64,000 bases of DNA from NCBI GenBank assembly GCA_006226775.1, contig SBGD01000074.1, positions 62,001 to 126,000 on the forward strand. The letters are read 5' to 3'. Under the pieces are notes generated by a model. That model searched no databases and was not told where the DNA came from. It saw nothing but the letters and a program-made list of their open reading frames with translations. This DNA comes from Paracoccaceae bacterium (GTDB lineage: Bacteria > Pseudomonadota > Alphaproteobacteria > Rhodobacterales > Rhodobacteraceae). The position numbers and the translations under genes were made by a program. Of the stretch, positions 29,773 to 52,878 are shown piece by piece; the stretch's first letter is position 1; every line of letters begins with the position of its first letter.

Positions 29773-31050
29773 TTACGTGCCGTCGAGTCCCTCGAAGGCG
29801 CCCGGCACCAGTTCTTCCCAGAAGGCCACCATTTCGCCGACCGACAGGGCCGAGCCCCAGCCCAGCCGGGTGAATTCCTCGCGCTCGACGTCATCGGACA
29901 GCCGCGCCAGGAACAGCCGCCTGTCGGCATCGCGCTGGGTCGGGGAGCGCCCGGCCACCAATTCGCGGATCCGCCCCATGCGCCCGGCGCGAAGCCGCCG
30001 CGCACGGTCAAGCTCGGCCTCGCGGGCCGTTTGCTCGCGCGTTGCCGCCTCGGCCTGCGCCTTGCGCGCCTCGGCCGCCTGCACCGCTTCCGGCGAAGGT
30101 TCGGGCGGGGTTTCGCCCTTGTAGTCGTCGCGCAGCGCCGCGCTCAGGTAGCGGACCGGGCTTTTCACCCCGTCGCGCCGCGCCAGGTAGGTCAGTTTCT
30201 CGGCCACATAGGCCTCGCCATGTTCGGCGATCCATTGCCGGGCCAGACGGTCGCTGACGCCGACCTTCAACAGCCCTTGGTAGACCGCGCCCTGCCGCAC
30301 GCCTTCGCCATCGTCGATGTCGAGCATCGCCAATTGCGGGTTCTCGCGAATCTTGAAACGCAGTTCACTGACCTGCCGCCCCATCTTGCGAAACTCGGGC
30401 TCGAGCAGGATGTTCGACGTCTTGTTCACCTCCTTGACCGCCGGTTTGATCACCTTGGCATTCAAATGCTTGAAGCTTTCATAATAGGCGCTGCCGTCGA
30501 CGCCCATCAGCCGGCGAAACAGGTCGATCGGCCACCAGCCGGTCGACCCGGTGCGCACGAAACGATAGCAATTCTCGTAAAGCGCCAGCGCGTGGCCGGA
30601 GGTGAACCGCCGCTGGATGTTCAGGTTGATCAGGGCAAAGACCTTGGGATCATGCAGCTTTTCTGCCAGCGCGGGCGAATAGGCGTATTCGCAGACCCCG
30701 CCCTTGAGCTTGGCATAGGACAAAAGCGCCGAGACGCCCCATTCCTGCTGGCCATCCGCGCCCAGCATGTCCCATTCCGCCACGGTTTCCGCCAGTGAGC
30801 GCAAGGACGCCTTCAGCGTCTCCATGTCGTTGGAATTGTAGCCCACCATCATGCAGAGCGTGCGGGCGTCGATCTGGTGCTTGGGCCGGGTGACGAGGTG
30901 GTCATAGGCGTTGAGCAAAAGCACGTTGGACAGCTTGCGCTGCAGCAGCGTCAGCTTGCCGGAGACATGGATCGCGGCCACGTTCTTTTTCACCGAAGGG
31001 CGGCGCAGCGGGCCGCTCAACTGGTCGTGCGGGATGTCGTCGGTCTGCAT
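29773..31050 (-). CDS. Plasmid replication initiator protein (Rep_3 / RepA-RepB type)
   Basis: KLTLLQRKLSNVLLLNAYDHL; SGHALALYENCYRFVRTGSTGWWPIDLFRRLMGVD; divergent from parAB; iterons upstream. Confidence 0.85.
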   Translation of the reverse strand: MQTDDIPHDQLSGPLRRPSVKKNVAAIHVSGKLTLLQRKLSNVLLLNAYDHLVTRPKHQIDARTLCMMVGYNSNDMETLKASLRSLAETVAEWDMLGADGQQEWGVSALLSYAKLKGGVCEYAYSPALAEKLHDPKVFALINLNIQRRFTSGHALALYENCYRFVRTGSTGWWPIDLFRRLMGVDGSAYYESFKHLNAKVIKPAVKEVNKTSNILLEPEFRKMGRQVSELRFKIRENPQLAMLDIDDGEGVRQGAVYQGLLKVGVSDRLARQWIAEHGEAYVAEKLTYLARRDGVKSPVRYLSAALRDDYKGETPPEPSPEAVQAAEARKAQAEAATREQTAREAELDRARRLRAGRMGRIRELVAGRSPTQRDADRRLFLARLSDDVEREEFTRLGWGSALSVGEMVAFWEELVPGAFEGLDGT

Positions 31051-31503: not shown

Positions 31504-31521
31504 GGTTTCGCATGCGAAACC
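31504..31521. promoter_or_regulatory. Candidate parS centromere site 1, GGTTTCGCATGCGAAACC
   Basis: Perfect 18-bp palindrome about 105 bp upstream of the probable parA ATG; one of five related palindromes. Confidence 0.65.
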
Positions 31522-31625
31522 CCAAAGATGTCTCCCTCGGATTGCTGATTCACAGGACGGCATGGATGTGCGATGATCTGGCGAATAACAGGCAAATCAC
31601 ACGATCCGAGCGAGGCACGAGCACA

Positions 31626-33041
31626 ATGGTCCGAAAACAGGACACCCCCCTGCCCCCCTATTACAATCTCGACCCCGAGACCTCGGCCGCCAAGTTGGGC
31701 GAGCCTATCGATACCGCCCGATTCGCGAAAGCCGCGGCCTTTGCCGGGCGGGGCCGCGACGATCTGGCCAGGCGCGGCTATGCCCCGGACGGGCGCAAGC
31801 GGCTGCGCAAGTTCTCGACCTGGGAGATCTGTCGCTACCTGATCCCGGTCGCCCCCGCCCACCTGCGCCGGGTGCTCAACAAGCATCCCGACCTGCCGCA
31901 GGGCGAAGGTCATGCGGGGGCCAAGTGGTTCAGCCTCGAAGAGGTGCTGCGCCTGCGCGATCACTTTGCCGAGGAAGGCGTGAGCACCAAGGAATACCGC
32001 CCCTACCGGCCCAAGGGGTTGCCCGCCAAGGTGGTGGCGGTGGCCAACTTCAAGGGCGGGGTCGGCAAGACCTCGACCGCGGCGCACCTGGCGATGAGTG
32101 CGGCGCTCGATGGCTACAAGGTGCTGGTGATCGATCTGGATTCCCAAGGCTCGATGACCTCGATCCTCGGCGGCCAGGTGGCCGATGAATGGCAGACCGT
32201 CTTTCCGCTGCTGGCGCGCGACTATGCCCGCCACCTGCAGGCCGAGAACCGGGTGCGCGAGGCGGCGGGCGATGCCCCTGCCCCGCTGGACGAGACGCTG
32301 ACGGAAAGCCTCGAGCTTTCGCTGCGAAACGTGGTGCAGTCGACCCATTGGCCGAACATCGACCTGATCGGCGCGCAGCTCAACCTCTACTGGGCCGAGT
32401 TCCAGATCCCGGTCTGGCGCATGGGGCTGAAGTCCTGGCCGCTCTGGGATGCGCTGACCGCGGGGCTCGAGGAAGGCGGCGCGCTGGACGACTATGACAT
32501 CATCCTGCTCGATACGCCGCCGGCGCTGGGCTACCTGACGATCAATGCGCTGGCCGCGGCCGATATCCTGCTGGTGCCGCTGGGCGCCTCGTTCCTGGAG
32601 TTCGATTCGACGGGGCGGTTTTTCGACATGCTTTATTCGACCTTCGCCAGCATCGAGGAAGGCGAGAACGGCGCCCGGCGCCGCGCGGGCCTGCCGGAGA
32701 TGAAATTCGAGTGGGACGTGGTCCGCGCCATCATCACCCGGTTCGACGCCAGTCAGCAGACCGATCTGGCCAACGTGATCCAGGCCTATTTCGGCGACAT
32801 GATGAACGCCTACCGGCAGGAATATACCGCGCTGGTCGGCCAGGCGGGTGAAAGCGTCAGCGGCATCTACGAGGCCGATTACCGCAACTTCAACCGCGAG
32901 ACCTATACGCGCGGTCGCGAGGCGTTCGACCGGACCTATGCGGAGTTCAAGGAGCTTCTGATCGGCTCCTGGTGGCGCGATGCGCAGATGGCGAAGACCG
33001 AGCAGAAGGAGGCCGAGCATGGCACGCCGCAGACAGCTTGA
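31626..33041 (+). CDS. parA: ParA family partition ATPase
   Basis: KVVAVANFKGGVGKTSTAAHLAMSAAL (deviant Walker A), VLVIDLDSQGSMTSILG; start chosen at internal ATG 31626 because the ORF ATG at 31512 lies inside the palindrome. Confidence 0.9.
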   Translation: MVRKQDTPLPPYYNLDPETSAAKLGEPIDTARFAKAAAFAGRGRDDLARRGYAPDGRKRLRKFSTWEICRYLIPVAPAHLRRVLNKHPDLPQGEGHAGAKWFSLEEVLRLRDHFAEEGVSTKEYRPYRPKGLPAKVVAVANFKGGVGKTSTAAHLAMSAALDGYKVLVIDLDSQGSMTSILGGQVADEWQTVFPLLARDYARHLQAENRVREAAGDAPAPLDETLTESLELSLRNVVQSTHWPNIDLIGAQLNLYWAEFQIPVWRMGLKSWPLWDALTAGLEEGGALDDYDIILLDTPPALGYLTINALAAADILLVPLGASFLEFDSTGRFFDMLYSTFASIEEGENGARRRAGLPEMKFEWDVVRAIITRFDASQQTDLANVIQAYFGDMMNAYRQEYTALVGQAGESVSGIYEADYRNFNRETYTRGREAFDRTYAEFKELLIGSWWRDAQMAKTEQKEAEHGTPQTA

Positions 33042-34104
33042 ACCGCCCTCGCCCGAGGCATTGAAGGCCCTGGAAGAGGGCTATGCGCGCGAGGTGCCGC
33101 GCAGCGGGCTGCGCATGCCCATTGCCGACGTGGTGGGCGAGGCCGCGGCCATGTCGACCCCCCTGCCCCCGGAGGCGCGCGCCGAACAGGCCCGCGACAA
33201 GGCCGATGCCGACCGCTGGCGCGAGGCCGAGAAGGACGGGCGGCTGGTCACCCTGATCCCGATCACCGAGATCCGGGTGGCAGGCATCACCCGCGACCGG
33301 CTCGAGGTCGATGCCGATGAGCTCAACGAGTTGGCGCTGTCGATCGGTGACAGCGGGTTACGCCTGCCGATCGAGGTGTTTCGCAGCGCGCAGGACAGCG
33401 AGGGCTATACGCTGATCTCCGGCTACCGGCGGCTCGAGGCCTTTCGCCAGCTGGTCGATCTGGGCCGCGTTGACGGCGATTTCACCCGCATCCCCGCCTT
33501 CATCCGCGAGCCCGAGAGCGAGGCCGAGGTCTATGTGGCGATGATCGAGGAGAACGAGATCCGCGTGGGTCTCAGCCAGTACGAACGCGGGCGCGCGGCG
33601 GCGATGGCGGTCTATGACGGGGTCTTCCCGACCCTCGACGAAGCGGTCAGCACGCTGTTTCGCAATGCCTCGAAAGCCAAGCGCTCGAAGATCCGTTCCT
33701 TCGCGATGATCCACGAGGAACTGGCCGACATGCTGGAATTTGCCACGCAGATGAACGAACGCCAGTGCCTGCGTCTCGCCTCTGCCCTGCGCGCCGGGCT
33801 GGGTCCGAAGATCCGCGAGGCGCTGGAGGCGGTGAAGGTCGGCTCGCTCGACGAGGAATGGGCCGAGATGCTGCCTTTCATCGAAGAGGCCGAGGGCGCT
33901 GCTCCCGCGCCGGGCCGTGGCGGTCGGCCCAAGGCGGCAAAGCGGCTGGAGACGGCGCGGCATACCCGGCTGGCAGGGGGCATCTCGATCGAGAGGGAAA
34001 GCGGCCCGCGCGGGTTTGCGATCCGGTTCCATGGCCCGGTGACGCCCGACATGGTGGATGACTGCATGGCGCGGATCGAGGCCCTTCTGGGCGCGCCTGA
34101 TTAG
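33019..34104 (+). CDS. parB: ParB/RepB/Spo0J family partition protein
   Basis: LRLPIEVFRSAQDSEGYTLISGYRRLEAFRQL; MIEENEIRVGLSQYERGRAA; overlaps the parA 3' end. Confidence 0.9.
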   Translation: MARRRQLEPPSPEALKALEEGYAREVPRSGLRMPIADVVGEAAAMSTPLPPEARAEQARDKADADRWREAEKDGRLVTLIPITEIRVAGITRDRLEVDADELNELALSIGDSGLRLPIEVFRSAQDSEGYTLISGYRRLEAFRQLVDLGRVDGDFTRIPAFIREPESEAEVYVAMIEENEIRVGLSQYERGRAAAMAVYDGVFPTLDEAVSTLFRNASKAKRSKIRSFAMIHEELADMLEFATQMNERQCLRLASALRAGLGPKIREALEAVKVGSLDEEWAEMLPFIEEAEGAAPAPGRGGRPKAAKRLETARHTRLAGGISIERESGPRGFAIRFHGPVTPDMVDDCMARIEALLGAPD

Positions 34105-34140: not shown

Positions 34141-34311
34141 AATTCTCACCAAATCAATCTTCTGATTGAAAATACGGGGCTGCCCCCGGCGGTTCGCCGT
34201 GGCGTGACCAGGGCGAAACCTCGTGCGCAACACCCTGCGTTCGCCCTGTTGTTCGACCGGTAATACGCAAGGCGCATGTTGGCCCCGGTATTCAGACCGA
34301 GGAGTTGACCC

Positions 34312-34581
34312 ATGCCGATCACCGATCCCTTCGCCACCCATGTCGACAGCCTGACCGGCCCTGTCACCGGCGGCTTCGACATCACCCCCGACGATGCCGC
34401 GGACCTCGCCTCTGTCACCCGCGCGCTGATGGTTTCCGCCGCGGGCGACCTGGCGGTGACCTTCCGCGACGGCTCGAGCGTGACGCTGCCGGGGCTGGCC
34501 CCCGGGGTGATCTATCCGCTGCGGGTGCGGCGCGTGCTGGCCACCGGCTCGACGGCCACGGGCGTCAAGGGGCTGATCTGA
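34312..34581 (+). CDS. Spike base protein, RCAP_rcc01079 (GhsA)-like
   Basis: 89 aa MPITDPFATHVDSLTGPVTGGFDITPDDAADLASVTRALMVSAAGDLAVTFRDGSSVTLPGLAPGVIYPLRVRRVLATGSTATGVKGLI; architecture recognised from the gene-transfer-agent spike base family. Confidence 0.75.
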   Translation: MPITDPFATHVDSLTGPVTGGFDITPDDAADLASVTRALMVSAAGDLAVTFRDGSSVTLPGLAPGVIYPLRVRRVLATGSTATGVKGLI

Positions 34582-35924
34582 TGCTGGGGCTTGGCCTCGC
34601 GCTGCAACCGCAGTTTCCCGCCGAGGTGACCGTCCCTTTGCCGGTGGGCTTCGGCTGGAATGCGGCGGCGCATCCGGTGCGGATCGTCCAGAGCGGCGCG
34701 GGGTTTCGCAGCGAAACCGCACCGCGCGACCTGGTCGATCCCGGTATCTGGACCGGCGCCGCGATTCACGTCGACGGCGCCCTGGGCGACGATGGCAATT
34801 CCGGGCTCGGGGCCGAGGACGGCGATTTCTCGGCCGCAAAGCGCACCATCTGGGCGGCCTTCGTCGCGGGCAACGCCACCGCGGCGCCCTACCGCGTGCT
34901 CGTCAAGCCGGGGTTCTACGAGGAGGGCGCCTTTACCCGCAACGGCAATGACGAACCGGCGCAGCCGGTGGCGGTGATCGGCTGGGGCGGGCCGGTGATG
35001 TATCGCACCGGGCCCTGGTCGGTGGGCTGGACGGACGCCGGCGGCACCTTCAGCGCCGGGGTGAGCGCGGTCAAACGGGTCTTTCGCACCGATGTGGAAA
35101 ACCCGCGCGGGCTCTATTCCGAGCTGGCGCAGGTCGCCGATCCCGCGACCTGTGCAGCCACGCCGCAGAGCTGGTGCAACGATGGCGGCACGGTGCATGT
35201 CAATATCGGCAGCGCGCCGGGGGCAGGGGACCTGGCGCTGATACGGTCGTTTCACGGGGCGCGGTTCCTGAGCCATGCCGATGACCTCTACCTCGAGAAC
35301 ATCCATTGCCAGGGCGGCATCACCGGCGCGCTGCATTGCGATGCCGCGGCGTCGCGCAACGTGGTGGCGGTCGATTGCAGCTTCCGCTATTCGGCGCCGT
35401 CCAATTCCTCGGCGCCGCTCGATGCGGCGCGGGTGCGGCGGACCAAGGGGCTGGCGGCGTTCTTCGATTGCGACGCCAGTTACGGGGCCAAGGACGGCTG
35501 GTCGTTTCACGAGGACGGAAACGCCGGGCTGCATGTGCTGCTCGAACGCTGCACCGGCTCGGACAATGGGGCGCTGGGGGCCAGCTCGGTCAATGCGCTT
35601 TCGACCCATGACGCGATAAGGATGATCGTGCTGGGTGGCGAGTTCGGCTGGTCGCGGAACGGCACCGAGGTGCATTGCATCCAGGCGACCGAGAGTTTTC
35701 TGGCCGGCTGCCGCGCGGTGGCGCGGGACGTGGACGGCACCTCGGTGGCCTACAAATGCTCGAACCCGTCGTTCATGTGGCTGCTCGACGCGGTGGCCGA
35801 CGCCGATGGCGCGGCGACCAATTACGCCATCGAGGCCAATGCCGGCACGGTCTTTACCCGCGGGTTTCAGGCGATCTCGGGCAGTATCGAGACCTCGAGC
35901 GGCGGCACCGTCACGCCCTTCTGA
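34581..35924 (+). CDS. Predicted head spike/fibre protein, RCAP_rcc01080 (GhsB)-like, beta-helix-like
   Basis: 447 aa starting at ATGA overlap with the spike base gene; repetitive short-turn pattern (VVAVDCSFRYSA, AAFFDCDASYGA, LLERCTGSDNGA, MIVLGGEFGWS) typical of right-handed beta-helix adhesins. Confidence 0.65.
   Translation: MLGLGLALQPQFPAEVTVPLPVGFGWNAAAHPVRIVQSGAGFRSETAPRDLVDPGIWTGAAIHVDGALGDDGNSGLGAEDGDFSAAKRTIWAAFVAGNATAAPYRVLVKPGFYEEGAFTRNGNDEPAQPVAVIGWGGPVMYRTGPWSVGWTDAGGTFSAGVSAVKRVFRTDVENPRGLYSELAQVADPATCAATPQSWCNDGGTVHVNIGSAPGAGDLALIRSFHGARFLSHADDLYLENIHCQGGITGALHCDAAASRNVVAVDCSFRYSAPSNSSAPLDAARVRRTKGLAAFFDCDASYGAKDGWSFHEDGNAGLHVLLERCTGSDNGALGASSVNALSTHDAIRMIVLGGEFGWSRNGTEVHCIQATESFLAGCRAVARDVDGTSVAYKCSNPSFMWLLDAVADADGAATNYAIEANAGTVFTRGFQAISGSIETSSGGTVTPF
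34702..34718. promoter_or_regulatory. Candidate parS-like palindrome 2, GGTTTCGCAGCGAAACC
   Basis: 17-bp palindrome within the ghsB-like coding sequence. Confidence 0.55.
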
Positions 35925-36982
35925 ACCAGGCGCCGGGCAAGGTCGGACCAGTCCGGCAGCGACTCGGGGCGCTTGCCCCGGGTTTCGCAGCGAAACCGCC
36001 AGTCGGGATCGGCGTAGCCGATGATCGACGGGGCGGAGGGGTGACAGAGCCGGTCCGGTCCGAGGATCGGCAGCCCGACATGCCGGTAGAGCCCGATGCG
36101 GTTGGAGTTGTGGGTCTGGTACTCGATCCCGGGGGCATCGCGATAGGGCGCAAGGCCGATGTCGGCATGGGCGATGAAGGCCAGGGTGTCGGCATGGCTT
36201 TTCTCGCCATGCAGCACCAGGTTGGCGGGGGTTTCGCATGCGAAACCGGTCGGTCCCAGCACATGCAACCGCCAGTGCGGCGCCTCGGAGGCGATGCGGA
36301 CCAGGGCGGGCAGGTCGAGCAGGGTGGTCCCGGCGCAGACGGCCTCGAACCGCGCGCGAGGGGTATATGGGTCAGGGTTGCTGACCTGAAGCAATCGCTG
36401 CGGAATGCCCATCGGATCGAGCGTGACCTTGCCCGGGTGGAAGCGGCGGGCGAGATGCGGGCTGGCGGTGCTGATCCGGTCGACCAGTTTTGCGGCCCGC
36501 GCCTCGGCCATCAGCAGCGCGCGCGGCGCCTTGATCAGCCGCATGTCGTCGTTGACGCGGTAGACCAGCCGGGCCTTGGGGGCAAAGCGCCGGGCCAGGG
36601 GCGCCAGCATGACCGGCGCCCCGGATTCGATCAGCACGAGGGCGGCCTGCGCCAGGTGCGGCTCCAGCACCGGACCCCAGAAGGCGGGGAAGAGTTGGTG
36701 TAGCGGGCTGAGCAGCGCGTCCAGCCCCGGTCGGCGGGTCGAGACCGGGTGCAGCGGGCTCCAATGGAAAATCGTGGTGAGGGTTTCGCTGCGAAACCGG
36801 GTGCCGGGTTGCGGCTCATGCGCCAGGCGCTTGTCGCCGGTCAGGCGTGACAGCCAGGAATATCCCACCGTCGCCAGGGTCACATGCCAGCCCATCTCCT
36901 GCAGGTGATGCGCCACCCAGAGCATCGAGGGCTTGCGCTTCTGCTCCGGGAAATGCCCGGTGAGGATCACCACGCGCCTCAT
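35867..36982 (-). CDS. GumK-like glycosyltransferase (glucuronosyltransferase family)
   Basis: WLSRLTGDKRL, LHPVSTRRPGLD, VLIESG, ARLVYRVNDD, LHGEKSHADTLAFIAHADIGLAPY correspond to GumK blocks; longer ORF to 38383 is a spurious extension. Confidence 0.75.
   Translation of the reverse strand: MRRVVILTGHFPEQKRKPSMLWVAHHLQEMGWHVTLATVGYSWLSRLTGDKRLAHEPQPGTRFRSETLTTIFHWSPLHPVSTRRPGLDALLSPLHQLFPAFWGPVLEPHLAQAALVLIESGAPVMLAPLARRFAPKARLVYRVNDDMRLIKAPRALLMAEARAAKLVDRISTASPHLARRFHPGKVTLDPMGIPQRLLQVSNPDPYTPRARFEAVCAGTTLLDLPALVRIASEAPHWRLHVLGPTGFACETPANLVLHGEKSHADTLAFIAHADIGLAPYRDAPGIEYQTHNSNRIGLYRHVGLPILGPDRLCHPSAPSIIGYADPDWRFRCETRGKRPESLPDWSDLARRLVQKGVTVPPLEVSILPEIA
35981..35997. promoter_or_regulatory. 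Candidate parS-like palindrome 3, GGTTTCGCAGCGAAACC
   Basis: 17-bp palindrome identical to copy 2, inside the GumK-like gene. Confidence 0.55.
36230..36247. promoter_or_regulatory. Candidate parS-like palindrome 4, GGTTTCGCATGCGAAACC
   Basis: 18-bp palindrome identical to copy 1, inside the GumK-like gene. Confidence 0.6.
36782..36798. promoter_or_regulatory. Candidate parS-like palindrome 5, GGTTTCGCTGCGAAACC
   Basis: 17-bp palindrome (CTG centre, reverse complement of CAG), inside the GumK-like gene. Confidence 0.55.
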
Positions 36983-38136
36983 GCCGGAACCCCGCGCGGC
37001 AGGTGCGCGCGGGCGTCGCGCAGGAAGGGCAGGGCGGCAAGCGCGCTGGCCAGCGGCAGGGCCCAGAGCGCCAGCGGGTGATGCAGGACCGGGCCCAGCA
37101 GCGCCAGCGAGAGGGCCAGCGTCACGGCGGCACGGCGCAGGGGCGGGGCGGTGTGGCCGGTGGCGATGAGCGCCTGGGTCAGCGGCATGAGCAGCGCGGA
37201 CAGCGCGCCGGTGAGCAGCAGCGGCGGCAGCAGCGGCGCGGCAGCCCGGGCCTTGTCGGGGCCGAGAAGCGGCAGCAGATGCGGCGCGGCGGCCCAGGCG
37301 GCGGGGTAGATCATCGCGGTCAGCAGCGTCACCTGGCGCAGGCTCTGGCGGAGGTGAGTGGCGAAATCGGCGCTGCCGGCGAGGGACTTGAAGCGGGGCA
37401 GCGCGAGATAGCGCAGCGGGGCGAGGGCGAGGGTGTCGATCAACTCGACCAGCCGGGTGGCGATCTGGAAGGCGCCGGCGGCGGGCAGGCCGAGGGTGAG
37501 GGCGATCAGGAGTTGCACGGCGGGGAAGGTGGCCGATCCGGCGAGCGGGCGCAGGGTGAGGCGGGCGAGATCGGGCAGCAGCGGGCGGAGCGTGCCGCGC
37601 GGGCCGAGGTCGGGCGGGGCGAGGGCAAGGGACAGCGCGGCGGTGAGGGCGGTATTGGTCAGGGCGAAGGCGGTGAGGCTCCAGGCGGCCCAGCCCTGGG
37701 TCAGGCCGTAGAGGGCGACGCCGGCGGCGAGGGCCTGGGCCAGCAGGGTGCGCAGGGCCAGCGCGCGGAGCTTGAGCGCGCGGCGCAGGCAGCCTTCGGA
37801 GGGCGCGGCGAGGGCGTTGAACAGCGGCAGGCTGGCGAGGACGGCAAGGTGCGGGCGGCTCTCGGCAGGCAGAACTGGAAGCGCGGCGAGGCAGAGCAGG
37901 GCGGCGGCGAGGCCGAGGCTGAGTGAGAGGGCAAGGAGCGGGTGGTCCGGCGTGTCGGAGGTGATGCGAAGCTCGGTGATGCCGGATTTGTGCAGCACCT
38001 GCAGGAGCCTGGGCAGGGCGAAGGCGGTGGCGAAGACGCCGATCTCGGCCAAGGGGAGAAGCCGGGCGGCAAGCAGGAAGATCGCCGCGGAAATGCCGAG
38101 ACGGGACCATTGCAGGATGATCGCCCAGAGCGTCAT
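36979..38136 (-). CDS. Polysaccharide flippase (Wzx/MATE-like)
   Basis: MTLWAIILQWSRLGISAAIFLLAARLLPLAEIGVFATAFALPRLLQVL; polytopic; start may be 38181. Confidence 0.78.
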   Translation of the reverse strand: MTLWAIILQWSRLGISAAIFLLAARLLPLAEIGVFATAFALPRLLQVLHKSGITELRITSDTPDHPLLALSLSLGLAAALLCLAALPVLPAESRPHLAVLASLPLFNALAAPSEGCLRRALKLRALALRTLLAQALAAGVALYGLTQGWAAWSLTAFALTNTALTAALSLALAPPDLGPRGTLRPLLPDLARLTLRPLAGSATFPAVQLLIALTLGLPAAGAFQIATRLVELIDTLALAPLRYLALPRFKSLAGSADFATHLRQSLRQVTLLTAMIYPAAWAAAPHLLPLLGPDKARAAAPLLPPLLLTGALSALLMPLTQALIATGHTAPPLRRAAVTLALSLALLGPVLHHPLALWALPLASALAALPFLRDARAHLPRGVPA

Positions 38137-38177
38137 GACGGGACCTCTGGGGTCGGGCGGCTGTTGGCTGTGGCGGA

Positions 38178-39185
38178 TCATGCGGGGACCTTGGCGGGGC
38201 TGGGGGTGAGGGCGGCGAGCAGGGGGCGCTCGATGTGGCGGTGGACCAGCAGGGCGGTCCAGAGGCAGGCCAGGGTGAGGGCGGCGCAGAAGGCGACGGC
38301 GGCCAGCGGGGTGGCCGGGAGAATGGGAAGCAGCGCCAGGGTGGCGGCGCGCAGGGTGAAACGGTGCGAGAGGTAGAGCGCATAGGAGGCGTCCCCCAGC
38401 CGCTGGAAGGGCAGGGGGCGGTCGGGCGCGAACAGCGTGCCGGCGGCGACGATCAGCATGGCGGGAAGGCCCGCGGCGAGGAACCGGGGCAGGGCGGTCT
38501 GGTGGAGCAGGGCGAGGAGAGCGAGGCCTGCGGCAAGGGCCGTCAGGGCCAGCGGGGTCGAGGGGCGGATGACACCCCTTTGCCAGAGGCGGGCGAGGGT
38601 GATGCCAAAGGTGAACTCGAGGATCAGCGGGTTGGTGTAGAACAGCGTTGCCGTGGACCGGGGCAGGTGGGGCCCGAGCAGGGCGAGGGTCACAAGCGCG
38701 GCGGCGCAGGTCAGAAGCGGGCGGGGCAGGGTGAGGCAGAGGGCCAAGAGGGCGTAGAAGAAGACCTCGTAATTGAGCGTCCAGCCGAGCGAGAGGACCG
38801 GGGCGATGCGGCCATCGGGGCGCTCGAACGGCAGGAAGAGGTAGGAGTGGAGGATCTGCGCGGGATCGAGGCCGGTGTCCTTGAGCGCGCCGGGGGCGGC
38901 AAGCAGGAGCGCCACCATCAGCGTGGTGAACAGCGCATAGAGCGGCGCGACGCGGCGCAGGCGGCGGCCGAGGAAGGCGCCGGGGCGGTGCAGGAAGCGG
39001 GCGGCGGAAAGCGTGACGATGAAGCCGGAGATCACGAAGAAGATGTCGACGCCGCGGGTCCAGGGCAGATCGGCGCCGGGCAGGTCGAGAGCGAAGTAAT
39101 GCGCGGCCTCGGCGCGGATATGGCCGACCAGCACCAGAAAGGCGGCGAGGGCGCGCAGGGACTGGAGGCCCGGGAGATGGGTCAT
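38178..39185 (-). CDS. Acyltransferase 3 family membrane protein
   Basis: LQSLRALAAFLVLVGHIRAE; RGVDIFFVISGFIVTLSAARFLHRPGAFLGRRLRRVAPLY. Confidence 0.9.
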   Translation of the reverse strand: MTHLPGLQSLRALAAFLVLVGHIRAEAAHYFALDLPGADLPWTRGVDIFFVISGFIVTLSAARFLHRPGAFLGRRLRRVAPLYALFTTLMVALLLAAPGALKDTGLDPAQILHSYLFLPFERPDGRIAPVLSLGWTLNYEVFFYALLALCLTLPRPLLTCAAALVTLALLGPHLPRSTATLFYTNPLILEFTFGITLARLWQRGVIRPSTPLALTALAAGLALLALLHQTALPRFLAAGLPAMLIVAAGTLFAPDRPLPFQRLGDASYALYLSHRFTLRAATLALLPILPATPLAAVAFCAALTLACLWTALLVHRHIERPLLAALTPSPAKVPA

Positions 39186-39320: not shown

Positions 39321-40589
39321 TCAGGCTGCTTCATGGAGGGCCTCGGTCTGTTGCATGGGCAGGGGGATGATCTGGGCCGTCGGGGCCGCCTTGCGGCGCG
39401 ACAGGTGGCAGATCAGGGCGATGACCAGCAGCGAGGCCAGCAGGTTCTGATGCAGAAGGTAAGGCGCGTGCGAGGAAAACAGCAGCGCGGCGCCGCATTG
39501 CGCATAGATCGCGGCAGCCAGCAGCGTCGCCCGGGCGCGGTGAAAGAGGATCCGCAGCGTGAAACCCGCGAGCAGCAGAAAGAGCGCCGCGCCGAAGGGG
39601 CCGAAATCGACGTAAGGGGCGGTCAGCAGAGGGAAATCTCCGCCGCCCTTGATGGCATCGAGCGCCGGCGCAAGCGGGGCGAGGGCCTGGTCGACCACCC
39701 CGTCGGTGAAGGTCAGCACCGCGACACCATGCAGGGTGATCCCGCCCCAGGTGGGCGGCGTTTCGGTGGCCAGCGGTGCGACGGCATTCCACAGGTCGTT
39801 GACCATGTAGAAGGCGAGTTTCTGCAACCCGATGGGCACCGCGTCGGTGCTGATGGCAGGGTTGGTCAGCGCCTCGCGCAGGCTCCAGACCCCGAGAAAC
39901 AGCGCCGCGCCGAGGATCAGCCAGGGCAGCGCCACAAGGCGGCGGCGGATCAGGCAGGTGACGAGATAGGCCGAAAGGGTGAATTGCAACAGCAGCAGGC
40001 GCTGGCTCATCACGATGGGCAGCAGCGTCAGCGCGATGGCGTTGAGCAGCAGCGTGAGACGGCAGAGCCTGCGGGCGCGGTCGGGCAATGCGCCGGTGGC
40101 GAGCAGCGCGGCGGCGAGGCAGCCGGTGGCGGGCAGCGCGGCATAGAACAGGCGCATCCCGGTGAAAAGCTTGTTCTGCAACAGGAAATCCCGGGCGGTC
40201 AGGGCCTCGGCGGCGGTCAGGATCAGCAGGCGGCGAAAACCGCCGAGTTGCAGCGCGGTGAGCGTGATCCAGAGCAGAGTAGTGCCCAGCAGCAGGAGGT
40301 TGGCCAGGAAGGTGAGGCGCGCGGCCCTCGCCAGATCCGGCGGAATGAAGCGGGGGCTGCGGCGGGGCAGGGCGGTGCGTGCGGCGAGGTCTCCCACCGT
40401 CCAGGCGGCCAGCGCGGTGAACAGCCAGAGCGCGCCCAGCGGGGTGAAGGCGGCAAGCGTGATGTCTTCGCGCGCCATGAAGGCGGGCATCAGGTCGAAG
40501 GCCCGTGGCGAGGTCAGCGCGACAAGCGCCACCGCAAGGGTCAGCGCCCAGCAGATCAGCACCAGCGAGAGGGGCGAGAGCGCACGCAT
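39321..40589 (-). CDS. Polytopic membrane protein, candidate polysaccharide polymerase (Wzy-like)
   Basis: 422 aa, about 10 TM, between acyltransferase/flippase and sulfotransferase genes. Confidence 0.6.
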   Translation of the reverse strand: MRALSPLSLVLICWALTLAVALVALTSPRAFDLMPAFMAREDITLAAFTPLGALWLFTALAAWTVGDLAARTALPRRSPRFIPPDLARAARLTFLANLLLLGTTLLWITLTALQLGGFRRLLILTAAEALTARDFLLQNKLFTGMRLFYAALPATGCLAAALLATGALPDRARRLCRLTLLLNAIALTLLPIVMSQRLLLLQFTLSAYLVTCLIRRRLVALPWLILGAALFLGVWSLREALTNPAISTDAVPIGLQKLAFYMVNDLWNAVAPLATETPPTWGGITLHGVAVLTFTDGVVDQALAPLAPALDAIKGGGDFPLLTAPYVDFGPFGAALFLLLAGFTLRILFHRARATLLAAAIYAQCGAALLFSSHAPYLLHQNLLASLLVIALICHLSRRKAAPTAQIIPLPMQQTEALHEAA

Positions 40590-41281
40590 CAGGCGGCCTG
40601 GGGCAGGGCGCGCGCGGCCGCGTAGAGGTGACGGTCGGCGGCGGTGAGCCGCTCGATCCGCGCGCGCAGGTCAGCCGGGATGCGGGTGCCCTCCGGCGCG
40701 CGGTTGCGGTGCAGGATGGGCAGCGGCAGGCCGGTGAAGCGGCGCAGCGCGCGGGCAAAGGCACGGGGCCGGGCGAGATCGCCGATCAGGGCGAAGCGGG
40801 CGAGGTTGTCCTGCGCCCTGGCAAGGGCCTTGGGAAGATCGCGACAGGTGGTCAGGCTCTCGCCCGCGAAGTGAAAGAGGTATTGCGAGGCCAGCCGCCG
40901 GGCATCCTCGGTGTCGAGAAAGGCGGCGAGGCAGGCGGGGCGCGCCGGGTCGGGATGGCGGCGTTGCAGGTAGTGGTAGTGCGAGACGAAGCGCTCGGCC
41001 GGGTCGCGCAGCAGGGTGATGAAGTCATGGCCGGAGCGGGCGTGAAGCTCGGGGTTGTAGCGGAGATGGCCGGCGATGCAGCGCGTCCTGCGCGCCAGGA
41101 GCCGCGCCAGCACCGCGTCGCGGGCGGCATAGTCCGACAGGATCCGCGCCTCGCCCGCCAGCGCCGGATCGCCAAGGTCGAGCGGGATCGTCGCCTGCGA
41201 AAAGGCATGACGCAGGCGCAGCGCGGCGCCAAAGCTCGACCCGCCGCATTTCGGAACATGAAGGTAGACGATGCCGCGCAT
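40589..41281 (-). CDS. Sulfotransferase family protein
   Basis: YLHVPKCGGSSFGAAL (5'-PSB loop) and LLRDPAERFVSHYHYL (3'-PB). Confidence 0.85.
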   Translation of the reverse strand: MRGIVYLHVPKCGGSSFGAALRLRHAFSQATIPLDLGDPALAGEARILSDYAARDAVLARLLARRTRCIAGHLRYNPELHARSGHDFITLLRDPAERFVSHYHYLQRRHPDPARPACLAAFLDTEDARRLASQYLFHFAGESLTTCRDLPKALARAQDNLARFALIGDLARPRAFARALRRFTGLPLPILHRNRAPEGTRIPADLRARIERLTAADRHLYAAARALPQAA

Positions 41282-41360: not shown

Positions 41361-42500
41361 ATGCGGATTGTTCATGTGGTCACGCGGCTTCTCAGGGCCG
41401 GGTCGGAAGAAAACACGCTGGAATGCTGCCGCTGGCAGGCCGGCGCCGGGCATGAGGTCCTGTTGGTGCACGGGGCCGAGGCGGATGCGGGCTGGGCCGC
41501 GCGTCTTCCGGTGCGGACGCTGGCCGTGCCCGAGATGGTGCATCCGATCCGGCCGGTCGCCGACCTGCGGGCCCTGGGCGCGCTGCGGCGGCTCTACCGC
41601 GCGGTGCAGCCCGACGTGATCCATACCCATCAGAGCAAGGCCGGCATCCTCGGGCGGCTGGCGGCGGATGCGGTGCCGGGCGCGCGGGTGGTGCACGGGG
41701 TGCACATGCTGCCCTGGGCGCATGTCGGCGCGGCGCGGCGGCGGGTGTATCTTGCGGCAGAGCGGGCGGCGGCGCGGCGCACGGATGTCTTCGTCGGCGT
41801 GAGCGAGGCCCTGGGCACCGCCTATCGCCAGGCGGGCATCGCGCCGCAGGTCCATTGCGTGCGCTCGGGGATGGACCTGGCGCGCTTTCGCCGCGCGGAC
41901 CTGCCGGCGGACTGGCGCGCGCTCTTGCGGCTGGCCCCGGGCGCGGCGCGGCCGCCGGTGGCGGTGATGCTGGCCGCGCTGGAGCCGCGCAAGCGCCACC
42001 TGGCCTTCCTGCGCGCCTTTGCCACGGTGCGGCGGCTGATGCCGGACCTGCGGATCGTGCTGGCCGGAACCGGGCCGGAGGCGCCGCGCGTGCGGCACGA
42101 GGTGGCGCGGCTGGGGCTGGGCGACCGGGTGATCCTGGCGGGCCATCGGCGCGATCCCGAGCGGCTTCTGGCGCTGGCCGATGTCTCGGTGCTGGCCTCC
42201 GAGCGCGAGGGCCTGCCGCGGGTGGTGGTGCAATCGCTGGCGGCGGGGGTGCCGGTGCTGGTCAACGACCTGCCGGGGATCGGCGAGGTGCTGCGCGACC
42301 GGGTCAACGGGCGCATCCTTCCGGCGCGCGATGCCGGCGCCTTGGTGCGCGAAATGGTCGGCATCCTGCGGGTGCCCGAGCGGCTGGAATGCCTGCGGCG
42401 CGGTGCGGCGGCCAGCGACGTCAGCCCCTGGGCGCTGGAGCGGCTGGGGCCGGAGACCACGGCGCTCTATGCGGCTGAGCCGATGAGGGCGGCGGCATGA
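41361..42500 (+). CDS. Glycosyltransferase family 4
   Basis: VVTRLLRAGSEENTLECCRWQAGAGHEVLLVHG; VSVLASEREGLPRVVVQSLAAGVPVLVNDLPGIGEVL. Confidence 0.88.
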   Translation: MRIVHVVTRLLRAGSEENTLECCRWQAGAGHEVLLVHGAEADAGWAARLPVRTLAVPEMVHPIRPVADLRALGALRRLYRAVQPDVIHTHQSKAGILGRLAADAVPGARVVHGVHMLPWAHVGAARRRVYLAAERAAARRTDVFVGVSEALGTAYRQAGIAPQVHCVRSGMDLARFRRADLPADWRALLRLAPGAARPPVAVMLAALEPRKRHLAFLRAFATVRRLMPDLRIVLAGTGPEAPRVRHEVARLGLGDRVILAGHRRDPERLLALADVSVLASEREGLPRVVVQSLAAGVPVLVNDLPGIGEVLRDRVNGRILPARDAGALVREMVGILRVPERLECLRRGAAASDVSPWALERLGPETTALYAAEPMRAAA

Positions 42501-43594
42501 GGCTGATGGTGAACGCGCGCTTCCTGGGCCAGCCGCTGTCGGGCGTGCAGCGCTTCGGCCGCGAGATCGTGGCGGCGCTGGATGCGCGGCTGATGGCGGA
42601 TCCGGCGCTTCGGGCGCGGCTGGGCCCGGTGGTGGCCTGCGCGCCGGAAGGCGTGGCCGATCCGGGGTGGCAGGCGATCACGCTGCGGCAGGTGCCGGGC
42701 GGGCAGGGCCACCGCTGGGAGCAGGGCGCGCTCTACCGCGCCGCGCGCGATGCGGTGCTGTTCTCGCCCGGCAATGCCGGGCCCCTGCGGCACCGGACGC
42801 AGGTGCTGGTGCTGCATGACGCCAACCTGTGGGAAATCCCCGAGGCCTATGGCTGGCGCTACCGCGCGCTGCACCGGGCGCTGCGGCCAAGGCTGGCGCG
42901 GCAGGCGGCGGAACTGGTGACGGTCAGCCGCTATTCGGCGCGGCAGCTGGCCGGGGTTCTGGGGGTGTCGGAGGGCCGGTTCTCGCTGGTGCCCAATGCG
43001 GTCGAGCATGTGCTGCGGTGCGACGCCGATCCCGGCGTGCTGGCGCGGCACGGGCTGACACGCGGGGGATACCTGTTCTGTGTCGGCAACCGGTCGCCGA
43101 ACAAGAACGTCGCGCGGCTGGTCGCGGCGCATGGGATGGCGGGCGAGGTGCCGCCGCTGGTGGTGGCGGGCGGCTTGGCGCCGGGCCTGGCGGCAACGCC
43201 CGCGGTCCAGGGCCTGGGCCGGGTCAGCGACGGCGAATTGCGCGCGCTCTACGAAGGCGCGCGGGGCTTCGTCTTCCCCTCGCTCCACGAGGGCTTCGGC
43301 ATCCCGCCGCTGGAGGCGATGGAACTGGGCTGCCCGGTGCTGGCGGCGCGGGCCGGCGCCCTGCCGGAGGTTCTGGGCGAGGCCGCGCTCTGGTGCGATC
43401 CGCTGTCGGTCGCGGACATGGCGCGGGGGATCAAGGCGCTGGCCGCGCTGGCGCCGCAGGACCGGGCGCAGCGGGTTGAGGCCGGTCGCGCGCGCGCCGC
43501 GCGCTATCGCTGGGCGCGCAGCCTTGACGCGCTTTTGCCGGTACTGGCGCGGGCGCGGGTCTGCGGCGGCGTCGGGATGCTTGCGGCGGGGTAG
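42497..43594 (+). CDS. Glycosyltransferase family 4
   Basis: LFCVGNRSPNKNVARLV; GARGFVFPSLHEGFGIPPLEAMELGCPVLAARAGALPEVLGEAA. Confidence 0.9.
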   Translation: MRLMVNARFLGQPLSGVQRFGREIVAALDARLMADPALRARLGPVVACAPEGVADPGWQAITLRQVPGGQGHRWEQGALYRAARDAVLFSPGNAGPLRHRTQVLVLHDANLWEIPEAYGWRYRALHRALRPRLARQAAELVTVSRYSARQLAGVLGVSEGRFSLVPNAVEHVLRCDADPGVLARHGLTRGGYLFCVGNRSPNKNVARLVAAHGMAGEVPPLVVAGGLAPGLAATPAVQGLGRVSDGELRALYEGARGFVFPSLHEGFGIPPLEAMELGCPVLAARAGALPEVLGEAALWCDPLSVADMARGIKALAALAPQDRAQRVEAGRARAARYRWARSLDALLPVLARARVCGGVGMLAAG

Positions 43595-43609: not shown

Positions 43610-44278
43610 CTACCGCCCGGTGGGGCTCAGCACCAGCCCGGCGGTGCGCAGGATCAGCACGAGGTCGAGCGGCAGGCTCTGCTCGGCGCGGTAGCGGCGG
43701 TCGAGCGCGACGCGCTTGCGGTAACAGCCATCGTCGCGGCCCTCGATCTGCCAGAGCCCGGTGATGCCCGGCGTCTGGCCGAGATAGGCGGCGGGGTCGC
43801 CATCGTAGAACGCCAGTTCCCCGGCGGTGATCGGGCGCGGCCCGACAAAGGACATCTCGCCACGCAGCACGTTGAGGATCTGCGGCAACTCGTCCAGCGA
43901 GGTGCGGCGCAGCAGCCGGCCCAGGCGGGTGATGCGCGGATCGTCACGCAGCTTGAAGGCGCGCGCCCAGTCGAGCGCGGCAATCGGATCCTGCGCCAGG
44001 GTCTCGGCAAGGATGCGGTCGGCATCGGGCACCATGGTGCGGATTTTCCAGCAGCGGAATGGCCGGCCCTTGCGGCCGATCCGCCGGTGGCCGTAGAACC
44101 CCGGCCCGCCATCGGCGCGGGCAAGCAGCCACAAGACCGCGATGACCGGGATCAGGAAGGGCAGCAGCACCGCGGCAACGACAAGATCGAGCGCGCGTTT
44201 GCCGCACCGGGCATAGAGGCGGCGGGCCGGGGTCGGCAGGGGCAGATCGGTGGTGACATCTGTCATGCGGGGCCTCAA
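43610..44278 (-). CDS. Initiating sugar transferase (ExoY/WbaP C-terminal type), copy A
   Basis: KRALDLVVAAVLLPFLIPVIAVLWLLA; FRCWKIRTMVPDAD; DELPQILNVLRGEMSFVGPRPI. Confidence 0.92.
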   Translation of the reverse strand: MRPRMTDVTTDLPLPTPARRLYARCGKRALDLVVAAVLLPFLIPVIAVLWLLARADGGPGFYGHRRIGRKGRPFRCWKIRTMVPDADRILAETLAQDPIAALDWARAFKLRDDPRITRLGRLLRRTSLDELPQILNVLRGEMSFVGPRPITAGELAFYDGDPAAYLGQTPGITGLWQIEGRDDGCYRKRVALDRRYRAEQSLPLDLVLILRTAGLVLSPTGR

Positions 44279-48836: not shown

Positions 48837-50201
48837 ATGTTGGCGATTGTGCGGAACTTGGGGCTGGCGCTGGGCCTTGTGGCCCTGTCGGCCTGCGGTG
48901 TGACCTATACCAGCCCGACGGTGAAATCCCAGGCCGAGGGGGCCAAGGTCCGGGTGGTCAGCCTGACCCCCCAGAGCGTGCTGGTGGCGAACCGCCAGAC
49001 CTATGTGCCGCGCTCGCTGCCGGACGTGTTCTACGCGGCCACCGGCGGCGGCACTGTCCGCGGCGCGACGGCGATCCCGCCCGCGCCCTACGTGCCGACC
49101 GAAAGCCGCGGCACGCTGACCCTGCGCCTGCCCTCGGACCCGCCGGTCGAGCCTTACCGCCTCGGGGTGGGCGACGTGGTGATGCTCTCGGCCAAGGGCG
49201 GCGCCTCGACGATCCAGGAATTGTCCGGCCTGCTGGCGGCGCAGAGCCAGCGCCAGGGCTTTACCGTGCGCGACGACGGCGCGATCTCGATCCCCAATGT
49301 CGGCACGGTGCAGATCGCCGGCATGACGCTGGAAGAGGCCGAGTCGCGGCTGTTCCGCGCGCTGGTGGACCGCCAGGTCGACCCGGATTTCTCGCTCGAG
49401 GTGGCGGAGTTCAATTCCAAGAAGATCGTCGTCGGCGGCGCGGTCGCCAGCCCGACCATCGTGCCGGTGAGCCTGACCACGCCGAACCTCGGCCAGGTGC
49501 TGACCGCCGCCGGCGGGCTGACCATCCAGGACGAGGAATTCGCCTCGGTGCGGCTTTACCGCGACGGGACGCTCTACCAGATCCCGATCCGCGATTTCTA
49601 CAACCGGCCCGAGTTGCAGCGCACAAGGCTGATCGACGGCGACGCGATCTATGTCGACACCAGCTATGATCTCGACCGGGCGCTGAGCTTCTACCGCCAG
49701 AAGATCGACATCATCAATATCCAGAACCAGGCCCGTTCGCAGGCGATTGCCGAATTGTCGACCGAGATCGGCCTGCGGCGCGCGGCGCTCGATGAGCAGC
49801 GCAGCAATTTCCAGGCGCGGACCACGTTGGATGCCGAGAAGCGCGACTATGTCTACCTGGCCGGCGAGGTGTCGAAACAAAGCCGCTTCACCCTGCCTTA
49901 CGGCCGGCAGGCGACGCTGGCGGATGTGCTTTACGACAGCGGCGGTTTCAGCACCGAGACCGGCAACCCGGCGCATATCTACGTGCTGCGGGCGTCGTCG
50001 AACCCGGCGGAATTCGGCGCGGTGACGGCCTGGCATCTGAATGCGTCGAATGCGATCAACATCACCATCGCGACCAATATGCAGATGCGCCCGAACGACG
50101 TGGTCTTCATCGAGGAACAGCCGATCACCAAGTGGGGCCGCGCGCTGCGCCAGTTCTTCCCGCCGCTGATCTCCTTGGGTACGACTGCCTTGGCGCAGTA
50201 A
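48837..50201 (+). CDS. Polysaccharide export protein (Wza-like, SLBB)
   Basis: Lipobox LSACG; PYRLGVGDVVMLSAKGG; RDDGAISIPNVGTVQIAGMTLEEAESRLFRAL; second SLBB-like DVLYDSGGFSTETGNPAHIYVLR. Confidence 0.88.
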   Translation: MLAIVRNLGLALGLVALSACGVTYTSPTVKSQAEGAKVRVVSLTPQSVLVANRQTYVPRSLPDVFYAATGGGTVRGATAIPPAPYVPTESRGTLTLRLPSDPPVEPYRLGVGDVVMLSAKGGASTIQELSGLLAAQSQRQGFTVRDDGAISIPNVGTVQIAGMTLEEAESRLFRALVDRQVDPDFSLEVAEFNSKKIVVGGAVASPTIVPVSLTTPNLGQVLTAAGGLTIQDEEFASVRLYRDGTLYQIPIRDFYNRPELQRTRLIDGDAIYVDTSYDLDRALSFYRQKIDIINIQNQARSQAIAELSTEIGLRRAALDEQRSNFQARTTLDAEKRDYVYLAGEVSKQSRFTLPYGRQATLADVLYDSGGFSTETGNPAHIYVLRASSNPAEFGAVTAWHLNASNAINITIATNMQMRPNDVVFIEEQPITKWGRALRQFFPPLISLGTTALAQ

Positions 50202-50688: not shown

Positions 50689-52878
50689 TCACCCCGCGTC
50701 GTAATAGCCTTTGCCATAGGCCGAATTGGCGCCGTATTTCCCGCCATAGCCGTAGCGCTTCATCCCCTTGGGGTCGATCTGTGCCATGACGAGGCCATGC
50801 ACCCGGATGCCGACGGATTCGAACTGGCGCAGGGCGTCGGTGACCTGGGTCTTGCTGGTGCGGTCCCAGGCGACCGAGAAGATGATGGCGTCGACGAACT
50901 GGCCGATCACCCGGGCGTCGGGGACGACCAGCACCGGCGGCGTGTCGATCACGATGTAATCATAGGTGTCGCGCAATTCCTGCAGGAAGTCGCGGAACCG
51001 GTCCGAGGAAAAGAGGTCGGCGGCATTGACGCTGGCCTTTTCGCCGCGCAGGACGTCGACCTCCATGCCCGGTGCGCGGACCACGAGCTCGGCCAGGGGC
51101 TGCTTGCCGGTCAGGGCGGAGACGATGCCGCCGGTGCTGTCTCCGAAGTCGAAATATTCCGCGAAGGTGCGGCGGCGGATGTCGCCTTCGACCAGCAGCA
51201 CCTTCTTGCCCAGACCCGAGAGATTATGCGCCAGGGCGATCGACTGGGTGGTCTTGCCTTCGCCCGGGATGGCGGAGGTGGACATGATGATCTGCGGCGT
51301 CTGGTCGATGTCGGACAGCAGCACCGAGGTGCGCAGGTTGCGGATCGCCTCGGAGGCGGCGGAGGTGGGCTTGTCGTTGAGGTAGCTCACCAGCGAACTG
51401 CGCTTGCGGAAGGGCATCTTGGGGATCTGGCCGAAGACCGCCAGGCCGGTGGCGGCTTCCAGGTCTTCGGGGGTGCGGAAACCGGAATGCAGCATCTGCC
51501 GGACCAGTACGATGCCGGCGCCCAGCATGGCGCCGAGGATCATGCAGAGCGCAAGGATGCGCGACTTGCGCGGTTCGACATATTGACCGGGCGTGGCCTT
51601 GGACAGGACCCGGCTGTCGGCCTGCTGCAAGCCGCGCTGCACCGTGGTTTCCTTGAGCCGGGTCAGGAAGGTCTCGTAGAGCGTGCGGGTGGCCTCGGTC
51701 TCGCGCTCCAGCTGCTGGAGTTTGACCAGGTCGGCGGATTGCCGTTCGATCTGCTCTTCCAGCCGGGCGAAGGATCCTTCCAGCGCCGTGACCTGCTGCC
51801 TGGCCCGCTCGAGGGCGTTTTCCTCGCGGGTGATCAGCATGGCGAAACGTTCGTCGAACATCTCGCGAATGGCCGGATCGGTCCCGGCGCGCCCGCTCAG
51901 GCGGTCAAGGGTGGGGTCATTCACGGCGGCGGCCATGGCGGCAAGGTCGTCGCCTTGCTGCAGGGTCTTGAGGTTCTCGACCCGGGCGGTGAGCAGGGCG
52001 ACATTGGTGCGCGACTCGGCAAGCCGGTCGCGCACGTCCTTGGCCTGCTGGTTCAGCGCCTGCAGCGTCTCGGCGTTGACCAGGTCGGTCCCGGCGCGCA
52101 ATTCCTTGATCGCGTTCTCGCGCTCCTTCAGCTCGGCCTCCAGCTCGACAACCCGTTCCGAGAGCCAGGCGACGGCATTCTCGGTGGCCTGGAACTTGAT
52201 GTCGATCTGGTCCTGGATATAGAGCTGCGCGAGGGTATTGGCGATCAGCGCGGATTTTCGCGGGCTTTCGGTCGTGGCGCTGATGTTGAAGATATAGGTA
52301 TTGCGCTGGTTCGACGCGGAGACGGCACCTCTGACCGCGGAAATGGCGCGGGTCACTTCGGGCGAGTCGGCGTCGTCATCCTCAGCCTGCGGCGCTTCGG
52401 CAACCGGCGTCGGGGCGACGACAGCGCGGATGGCAGCCTTGATCGTGCCGAGGGAAAATGCCGGCTCCGGTCGCAGCGCGCCATTGAATTCGGGGTCTTG
52501 CGTGAGGTTCAGCTCTTCGACCAGCTTGGCCAGCAGACCGCTCGAGCGGATCACCTCGAGCTCGGTATTGATGGCGCTGGTTTCCGTCGACACCCCGGAC
52601 ATGACGCTTTCCAGGTCGACGACATTCTCGCTGCGGATCTGCAGGGCGAGCTGGGTGGAGGACTGGTACTTCGGCACCGCCACCCAGAAAGCATAATAGC
52701 CGCCGATCAGCATCAGCAGCGCGGCGCATCCGGCAATGATCCACTTGCCCCGCCAAAGGGTGCCCAACAATGCCAGCAGATCGATCTCGTCGCCGTCATC
52801 CTCCCGCGCGGGGGATCTCTGGGTCATCGGCGTGAACCGGTTTCCGGGGCGGAAACCACCTTGGCTCTTTTCTAACAT
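50689..52878 (-). CDS. Polysaccharide chain-length determinant / BY-kinase (Wzc-like)
   Basis: Wzz N-terminal domain; Walker A SAIPGEGKTTQSIAL; C-terminal Tyr cluster YGYGGKYGANSAYGKGYYDAG. Confidence 0.9.
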   Translation of the reverse strand: MLEKSQGGFRPGNRFTPMTQRSPAREDDGDEIDLLALLGTLWRGKWIIAGCAALLMLIGGYYAFWVAVPKYQSSTQLALQIRSENVVDLESVMSGVSTETSAINTELEVIRSSGLLAKLVEELNLTQDPEFNGALRPEPAFSLGTIKAAIRAVVAPTPVAEAPQAEDDDADSPEVTRAISAVRGAVSASNQRNTYIFNISATTESPRKSALIANTLAQLYIQDQIDIKFQATENAVAWLSERVVELEAELKERENAIKELRAGTDLVNAETLQALNQQAKDVRDRLAESRTNVALLTARVENLKTLQQGDDLAAMAAAVNDPTLDRLSGRAGTDPAIREMFDERFAMLITREENALERARQQVTALEGSFARLEEQIERQSADLVKLQQLERETEATRTLYETFLTRLKETTVQRGLQQADSRVLSKATPGQYVEPRKSRILALCMILGAMLGAGIVLVRQMLHSGFRTPEDLEAATGLAVFGQIPKMPFRKRSSLVSYLNDKPTSAASEAIRNLRTSVLLSDIDQTPQIIMSTSAIPGEGKTTQSIALAHNLSGLGKKVLLVEGDIRRRTFAEYFDFGDSTGGIVSALTGKQPLAELVVRAPGMEVDVLRGEKASVNAADLFSSDRFRDFLQELRDTYDYIVIDTPPVLVVPDARVIGQFVDAIIFSVAWDRTSKTQVTDALRQFESVGIRVHGLVMAQIDPKGMKRYGYGGKYGANSAYGKGYYDAG

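Follow-up and report, generated by a model that had tools for sequence, protein, structure and literature searches.

Candidate gene-transfer-agent head spikes encoded on a plasmid beside genes for their probable polysaccharide receptor

Why bacteria keep gene transfer agents (GTAs) is a long-standing question: the producers die, and the recipients may be anyone. Were the head spikes of a GTA and the receptor coat passed on together in a single cassette, transfer would be directed to cells that have that same cassette. We consider this question for a pair of genes in a 64,000-nt stretch of DNA from a marine bacterium, Paracoccaceae bacterium GCA_006226775.1 (contig SBGD01000074.1, positions 62,001-126,000 of the forward strand), referred to here as the window. 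Our best explanation, to which we assign a probability of about 0.6, is that the pair, which we call ghsA and ghsB, encodes accessory head spikes of a GTA and moves together with the genes that make the probable receptor of those spikes.

The 149-kb contig that holds the window carries Rep3, ParA and ParB genes and matches RepB-I plasmids such as Marinovum algicola pMaD9. ParA, ParB and the Rep3 replication protein are encoded to the left of ghsAB and a polysaccharide locus lies to the right, so that the first-pass annotation's placement of the pair on a plasmid, between parB and polysaccharide genes, is borne out by the Rep3/ParAB genes and by Pfam matches in the polysaccharide locus. The pair and the plasmid backbone comprise:

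29773..31050, minus strand: plasmid replication initiator, Rep3 (pMaD9 homologue annotated RepB-I)
31512..33041, plus strand: parA (Pfam AAA_31, CbiA)
32980..34104, plus strand: parB (Pfam ParB_N, E 1e-7)
34312..34581, plus strand: ghsA-like gene, head-spike base protein of 89 aa (NCBIfam NF048002, PDB 6tb9)
34581..35924, plus strand: ghsB-like gene, head-spike fibre, beta-helix protein of 447 aa (PHROG 16653/32409, AF2 model, Foldseek)
34584..34604, plus strand: putative anchor peptide LGLGLAL, residues 2-8 of GhsB, predicted to dock in the GhsA pentamer (RcGTA fibre pattern)

The 89-aa product had been placed in the Rcc01079 spike-base family by its architecture, and profile and structure matches agree: GhsA scores 108 bits against NCBIfam NF048002 (RCAP_Rcc01079 family; E 2e-31, cut-off 28) and matches PDB 6tb9, 'Head spike base Rcc01079' (E 7e-13), as well as PHROG 12296 'tail fiber' (E 2e-25). 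It is the sole spike-base gene in the 4.58-Mb genome. Homologues of the spike base also occur in ordinary phages (RcapNL, RcapMu, DSS3P8 and Rhizobium phages) and on the prophage-like plasmid Tritonibacter p5, and family membership alone is therefore no proof of use in a GTA. We also considered the capsid-contact residue Glu12, which coordinates a cation in RcGTA, as a diagnostic; the position holds Thr in the window's GhsA and Glu in 17 of 108 aligned family members, and we rejected it because it varies within the spike-base family.

The stop codon of ghsA and the start codon of ghsB share one base. Of the translational coupling proposed earlier, the overlap stands, while the junction reads TGATG and not ATGA; an overlapping, coupled ghsB start is kept in the intact copies of the window-type clade. 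In RcGTA the fibre is anchored in the base by its residues 2-10 (IALGLGLGL) and is otherwise flexible (PMC7296036). Five hydrophobic positions of that peptide occupy the pockets of the RcGTA base, and the N-terminus of GhsB, MLGLGLAL, fits four of them. Across 100 family loci, an N-terminal run of at least three alternating hydrophobic residues was found in 33 of 63 ORFs starting within ~20 bases of the ghsA stop, compared with 6 of 641 control genes (Fisher p 4e-33); the fibres adjoining ghsA otherwise vary widely, from ~100 to 1385 aa. Public annotation of several sister RepB-I plasmids begins ghsB 28-42 codons too late (L003 12001-12085, L005 2999-3083, L004 12001-12127), which cuts off the anchor peptide, and calls both genes 'hypothetical protein'.

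GhsB has no match in Pfam or NCBIfam, Pfam gave nothing on 21 GhsB family members, and a PDB sequence-profile search with the GhsB alignment was likewise empty; matches come from PHROG 16653 'hydrolase' (E 1e-30) and PHROG 32409 'tail fiber' (E 1e-14). An AlphaFold2 model of the monomer (pLDDT 89.6) is mostly beta strand, residues 1-11 being disordered. The top Foldseek matches of this model are viral proteins, including several with the name tail fibre or right-handed beta-helix (TMq up to 0.84), which upholds the first-pass description of the 447-aa ORF as beta-helix-like, and it also weakly matches polysaccharide-acting beta-helix enzymes in the PDB (lyases and glycosidases). The profile match, the gene coupling and the fibre anchor peptide identify the pair as one of the GhsA/GhsB kind.

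The first-pass annotation had suggested looking in the genome for a GTA cluster and a ghsAB pair belonging to it. Contig C102 holds a cluster of RcGTA type (large terminase, portal, protease, HK97 capsid, connector, tail tube, DUF2460, hub and GTA_TIM), and the genome has no spike base other than the window's. The capsid of the C102 cluster matches that of RcGTA, Rcc01687, at E 3e-162 and is 93% identical to the M. algicola FF3 capsid. A second GTA_TIM copy lies on contig C9 (L038) in a prophage-like tail region, where the hub protein matches its family at E 1e-158. Another genome from this genus carries GTA_TIM and lacks the spike base. In a survey of 398 genomes of the family, GTA_TIM was present in 352 and the spike base in only 142, so that the spikes look accessory and exchangeable. 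GTA_TIM accompanies ghsA in 137 of 142 genomes, against 215 of 256 genomes without ghsA, an association that counts as weak because GTA_TIM also occurs in some prophages.

These data bear on two other explanations of the pair. In one, it is the spike of an ordinary phage or prophage that was left on the plasmid or exchanged with it, and it decorates phage heads rather than those of a GTA; the base homologues in tailed phages and on a prophage-like plasmid would fit, as would the host's own prophage contig C9 with its GTA-like tail hub. We nevertheless think this unlikely. No phage structural gene was seen adjoining ghsAB in the window or in syntenic plasmid loci, where the neighbours are parB and polysaccharide genes, and the scanned parts of the window contained no capsid, portal or terminase gene, as first noted. 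The phage relatives are also distant: phage matches to the window's GhsA are 33-41% identical, the bases of the same small family in RcapNL, RcapMu, vB_PbeS_Pben1 and DSS3P8 being at 34-40%, and the phage beta-helix fibres and hydrolases of PHROG 16653 and 32409 share the predicted fold of GhsB but reach ~31% identity or less, with no GhsA base seen alongside them. A search of IMG/VR returned no relatives of GhsB. Moreover, its position next to polysaccharide genes is conserved across many genera.

The other explanation is that GhsB modifies or binds polysaccharide for the cell's own use, like the lyase or hydrolase of many exopolysaccharide loci. While the position of GhsB within a polysaccharide locus and the resemblance of its model to lyases and glycosidases are in keeping with such a role, we judge it improbable, since a simple hydropathy check found no secretion signal (no basic N-region or hydrophobic core) on either GhsA or GhsB, since ghsB is coupled by overlap to a virion spike-base gene and retains the anchor peptide in the clade, and since GTA genes are found in nearly all ghsA genomes, though also in most genomes without ghsA. 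Accessory GTA spikes remain our preferred reading, and the polysaccharide genes to the right of the pair are then candidates for the source of the receptor:

35867..36982, minus strand: GumK-like glycosyltransferase (Pfam GumK_N, E 2e-47)
36979..38181, minus strand: Wzx-type flippase (Pfam Polysacc_synt_3, E 4e-14)
38178..39185, minus strand: acyltransferase-3, polysaccharide acylation (Pfam Acyl_transf_3, E 1e-21)
39321..40589, minus strand: Wzy-like polymerase (homology to annotated O-antigen/oligosaccharide polymerases of syntenic loci; no Pfam match)
40589..41281, minus strand: sulfotransferase (Pfam Sulfotransfer_2, E 9e-6)
41361..42500, plus strand: glycosyltransferase GT_a (Pfam Glycos_transf_1, E 5e-27)
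42497..43594, plus strand: glycosyltransferase GT_b (Pfam Glycos_transf_1, E 5e-19)
43610..44278, minus strand: initiating sugar transferase (Pfam Bac_transf, E 3e-54)
48837..50201, plus strand: Wza-type polysaccharide export protein (Pfam Poly_export, SLBB_2)
50689..52878, minus strand: Wzc-type chain-length/tyrosine autokinase (Pfam Wzz, GNVR, AAA_31)
52953..53618, minus strand: second initiating sugar transferase (Pfam Bac_transf, E 4e-51)

The closest known system is the GhsA/GhsB pair of RcGTA (Rcc01079/Rcc01080), which has in common with the window the spike-base family, the two-gene tandem, the Leu/Gly anchor peptide, an RcGTA-type capsid in the genome and directly adjacent polysaccharide genes (rcc01081-01086 in R. 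capsulatus). Unlike that pair, the window's lies by parB on a RepB-I plasmid, encodes a predicted fibre of 447 aa rather than 325 aa, and adjoins a locus of the GumK/Wzx/Wzy/sulfotransferase type. Other roseobacter RepB-I plasmids (Marinovum pMaD9, Sulfitobacter, Roseivivax) share the rep-parAB backbone, the position of ghsAB and the polysaccharide locus.

Linkage between spike-base and polysaccharide genes extends well beyond these plasmids. We examined stretches of up to 20 kb around 96 spike-base genes, together with 40 control stretches from the same contigs. At least one polysaccharide gene lay within ~10 kb of ghsA in 67 of the 96 loci and at least three in 47, compared with 5 and 0 of the 40 controls (p about 1e-9), using gene profiles that were seeded from plasmid ghsA loci and could favour ghsA regions somewhat; the other 29 loci had no recognisable polysaccharide gene within 10 kb. 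The first-pass annotation had proposed surveying other plasmids for such pairs together with this polysaccharide locus; pairs next to polysaccharide loci are found on many unrelated plasmids and chromosomes. Among annotated plasmids, pairs with varied fibres sit in varied polysaccharide loci in Loktanella, Rhodovulum, Limimaricola, Jannaschia, Leisingera, Roseobacter litoralis and Alloyangia; the exceptions are the prophage-like Tritonibacter plasmid and a Cereibacter plasmid, and Thioclava has only YjbH/YjbF-type genes nearby.

For the window's own type of fibre, the pair and the polysaccharide genes appear to travel as a unit. This fibre type occurs in 8 of 111 spike-base loci, and high-scoring window-type polysaccharide genes occur in those eight and in essentially no others; one of the eight contigs ends at the GumK gene, one locus is without GumK (pMaD9) and one is decayed. 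A scan for the fibre covering one genome for each of 84,980 species identified 24 named genomes, some of which overlap the 111-locus set, and ghsA stands alongside in all 24. Window-type polysaccharide genes accompany the pair in 22-23 of them: in 22 they follow it, either in full or up to the end of the contig, and in one locus (L208) some of these genes lie on the opposite side of the pair. In another (L206, a Marinibacterium MAG) the fibre gene is broken and the polysaccharide genes are weak remnants. Three of the 24 modules lie beside Rep3-ParAB; the others are elsewhere, some on contigs of 0.7-1.6 Mb. A GTA capsid was not recognised in five of the 24 genomes, four of them uncultured or MAG assemblies and one an isolate, Ruegeria sediminis (L200, G408). 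In this isolate the spike-polysaccharide module is intact, GTA_TIM is matched only in part and a capsid of the RcGTA type is not recognisable; it may have a different type of GTA or put the spikes to another use.

Over 15 of these loci, distances between GhsB proteins correlate with distances between the polysaccharide genes (Mantel r 0.78, or 0.67 after controlling for the GTA capsid, p 0.0002) and to a lesser degree with GTA capsid distances (0.23, p 0.065), the capsid serving as a stand-in for the species tree that does not fully correct for shared ancestry. Divergence of the fibre tracks that of the polysaccharide genes more closely than that of the capsid. On two Sulfitobacter plasmids (L008 and L146) that have the same backbone and have lost most of the polysaccharide genes, ghsB survives only as fragments. 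With the Marinibacterium locus, ghsB is thus broken at three loci where the polysaccharide genes are gone or remnant, two of them on related plasmids, and the three may offer a natural test of whether ghsB depends on those genes.

Polysaccharide loci are recombination hot spots. The spikes could be GTA spikes whose linkage to polysaccharide genes reflects shared mobility, surface-variation loci having gathered them as accessory genes, with another polysaccharide as the ligand. In line with this, a comparison of fibre type with polysaccharide-locus type over 61 usable loci was positive only through the window's own clade, and a match was not demonstrable outside it, where related fibres are too few. 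Several observations make shared mobility alone an unlikely account: a single fibre type is found with the same locus of several genes in many genera and on replicons of different kinds, GhsB and the polysaccharide genes co-diverge beyond the level seen with the GTA capsid, and ghsB has decayed at the three loci described above. Furthermore, ghsAB of R. capsulatus lie next to capsule genes with which they are co-regulated, and the tagged head spike has the capsule made by those neighbouring genes as its ligand (PMC10218006).

The reading that we prefer, of accessory GTA spikes travelling with receptor genes, suggests a mechanism whose steps at the window are assumed from homology with the R. 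capsulatus experiments (PMC7296036, PMC10218006). At each five-fold vertex of the GTA head, GhsA would assemble into a pentameric base, into which GhsB would plug its LGLGLAL tail, presenting a beta-helix domain that would bind, and may cut, surface polysaccharide. The likeliest ligand would be the polysaccharide made by the adjacent Wzx/Wzy locus, and binding would bring GTA particles to cells wearing the same coat. Spike and receptor synthesis would move in a single cassette, carried in this case by a RepB-I plasmid, and its uptake would equip a cell with a spike as well as with the coat recognised by that spike. We infer in this way that GhsA and GhsB are incorporated into GTA particles, bind this polysaccharide and affect which cells receive DNA; the R. 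capsulatus pair is the only one for which spike binding to the polysaccharide of an adjacent locus, and the steering of gene transfer, have been shown by experiment (PMC10218006).

The genomic predictions of the first-pass annotation that could be tested all came out in its favour (the profile and anchor match, the GTA cluster and the polysaccharide-linked pairs), and we found neither a lack of similarity to known spikes nor a pair consistently apart from polysaccharide genes or GTA clusters. As far as sequence reaches, its reading of the locus as a self-matching recognition module is supported. A broader idea, which we offer tentatively and hold at somewhat less than even odds, is that of a mobile 'greenbeard' cassette: one stretch of DNA would make both a polysaccharide and the spike that finds its wearers, so that plasmids and chromosomal islands would set, and could swap, the group within which genes are exchanged, the GTA heads staying constant and the spike-plus-coat being exchangeable. 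Because a plasmid can supply the spikes, the idea is testable by curing or moving one replicon. The analysis also suggests a function for 'hypothetical' genes on many roseobacter plasmids. This kind of spike was already known, as was its adjacency to capsule genes in one species, R. capsulatus; the plasmid setting, the family-wide rule and the movement of the module intact between replicons appear new, as we did not find them in the literature searched, which did not include Hynes 2016 and Westbye 2016.

We also inspected the DNA upstream of ghsA. CtrA half-sites and CtrA regulation have been reported for the ghsAB promoter of R. capsulatus (PMC9638019). A head-spike pair of this kind would be expected to be expressed together with the GTA, under CtrA and GafA. 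In the window, GGTAAT at 34259..34264 (plus strand), 53 bases before the ghsA start, is a weak, degenerate candidate for a CtrA half-site; at a similar distance Marinovum pMaD9 has GGTAAC and Sulfitobacter GGTTAAT. A targeted search found TTAAC half-sites upstream of 24 of 72 polysaccharide-linked ghsA genes, against 7.9 expected. When ghsA upstream regions were searched for dyads without a preset motif, no strong common promoter element emerged. CtrA regulation of ghsA across the family is therefore plausible on the basis of these motifs, the window having a degenerate site alone.

A second motif in the window is the palindrome GTTTCGC-N1/2-GCGAAAC, which occurs at positions 31505, 32316 (with one mismatch), 34703, 35982, 36231 and 36783, clustering around parAB, ghsB and the GumK gene, with a chance expectation of 0.01; one copy sits within ghsB. 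Copies lie near parAB on all RepB-I plasmids checked, and none was found in 800 kb of control DNA or in module copies away from parAB. These are probably the plasmid's parS-like centromere sites.

Finally, a NusG-domain protein (Pfam NusG, E 6e-17) is encoded at 29170-29706 (plus strand) in the window. It is a specialised paralogue of NusG whose gene lies near those for the polysaccharide; the Sulfitobacter OXR-159 plasmid (L008) has one in a similar position, and there is a homologue at locus L190. The protein is possibly an RfaH/LoaP-like antiterminator for the long operons.
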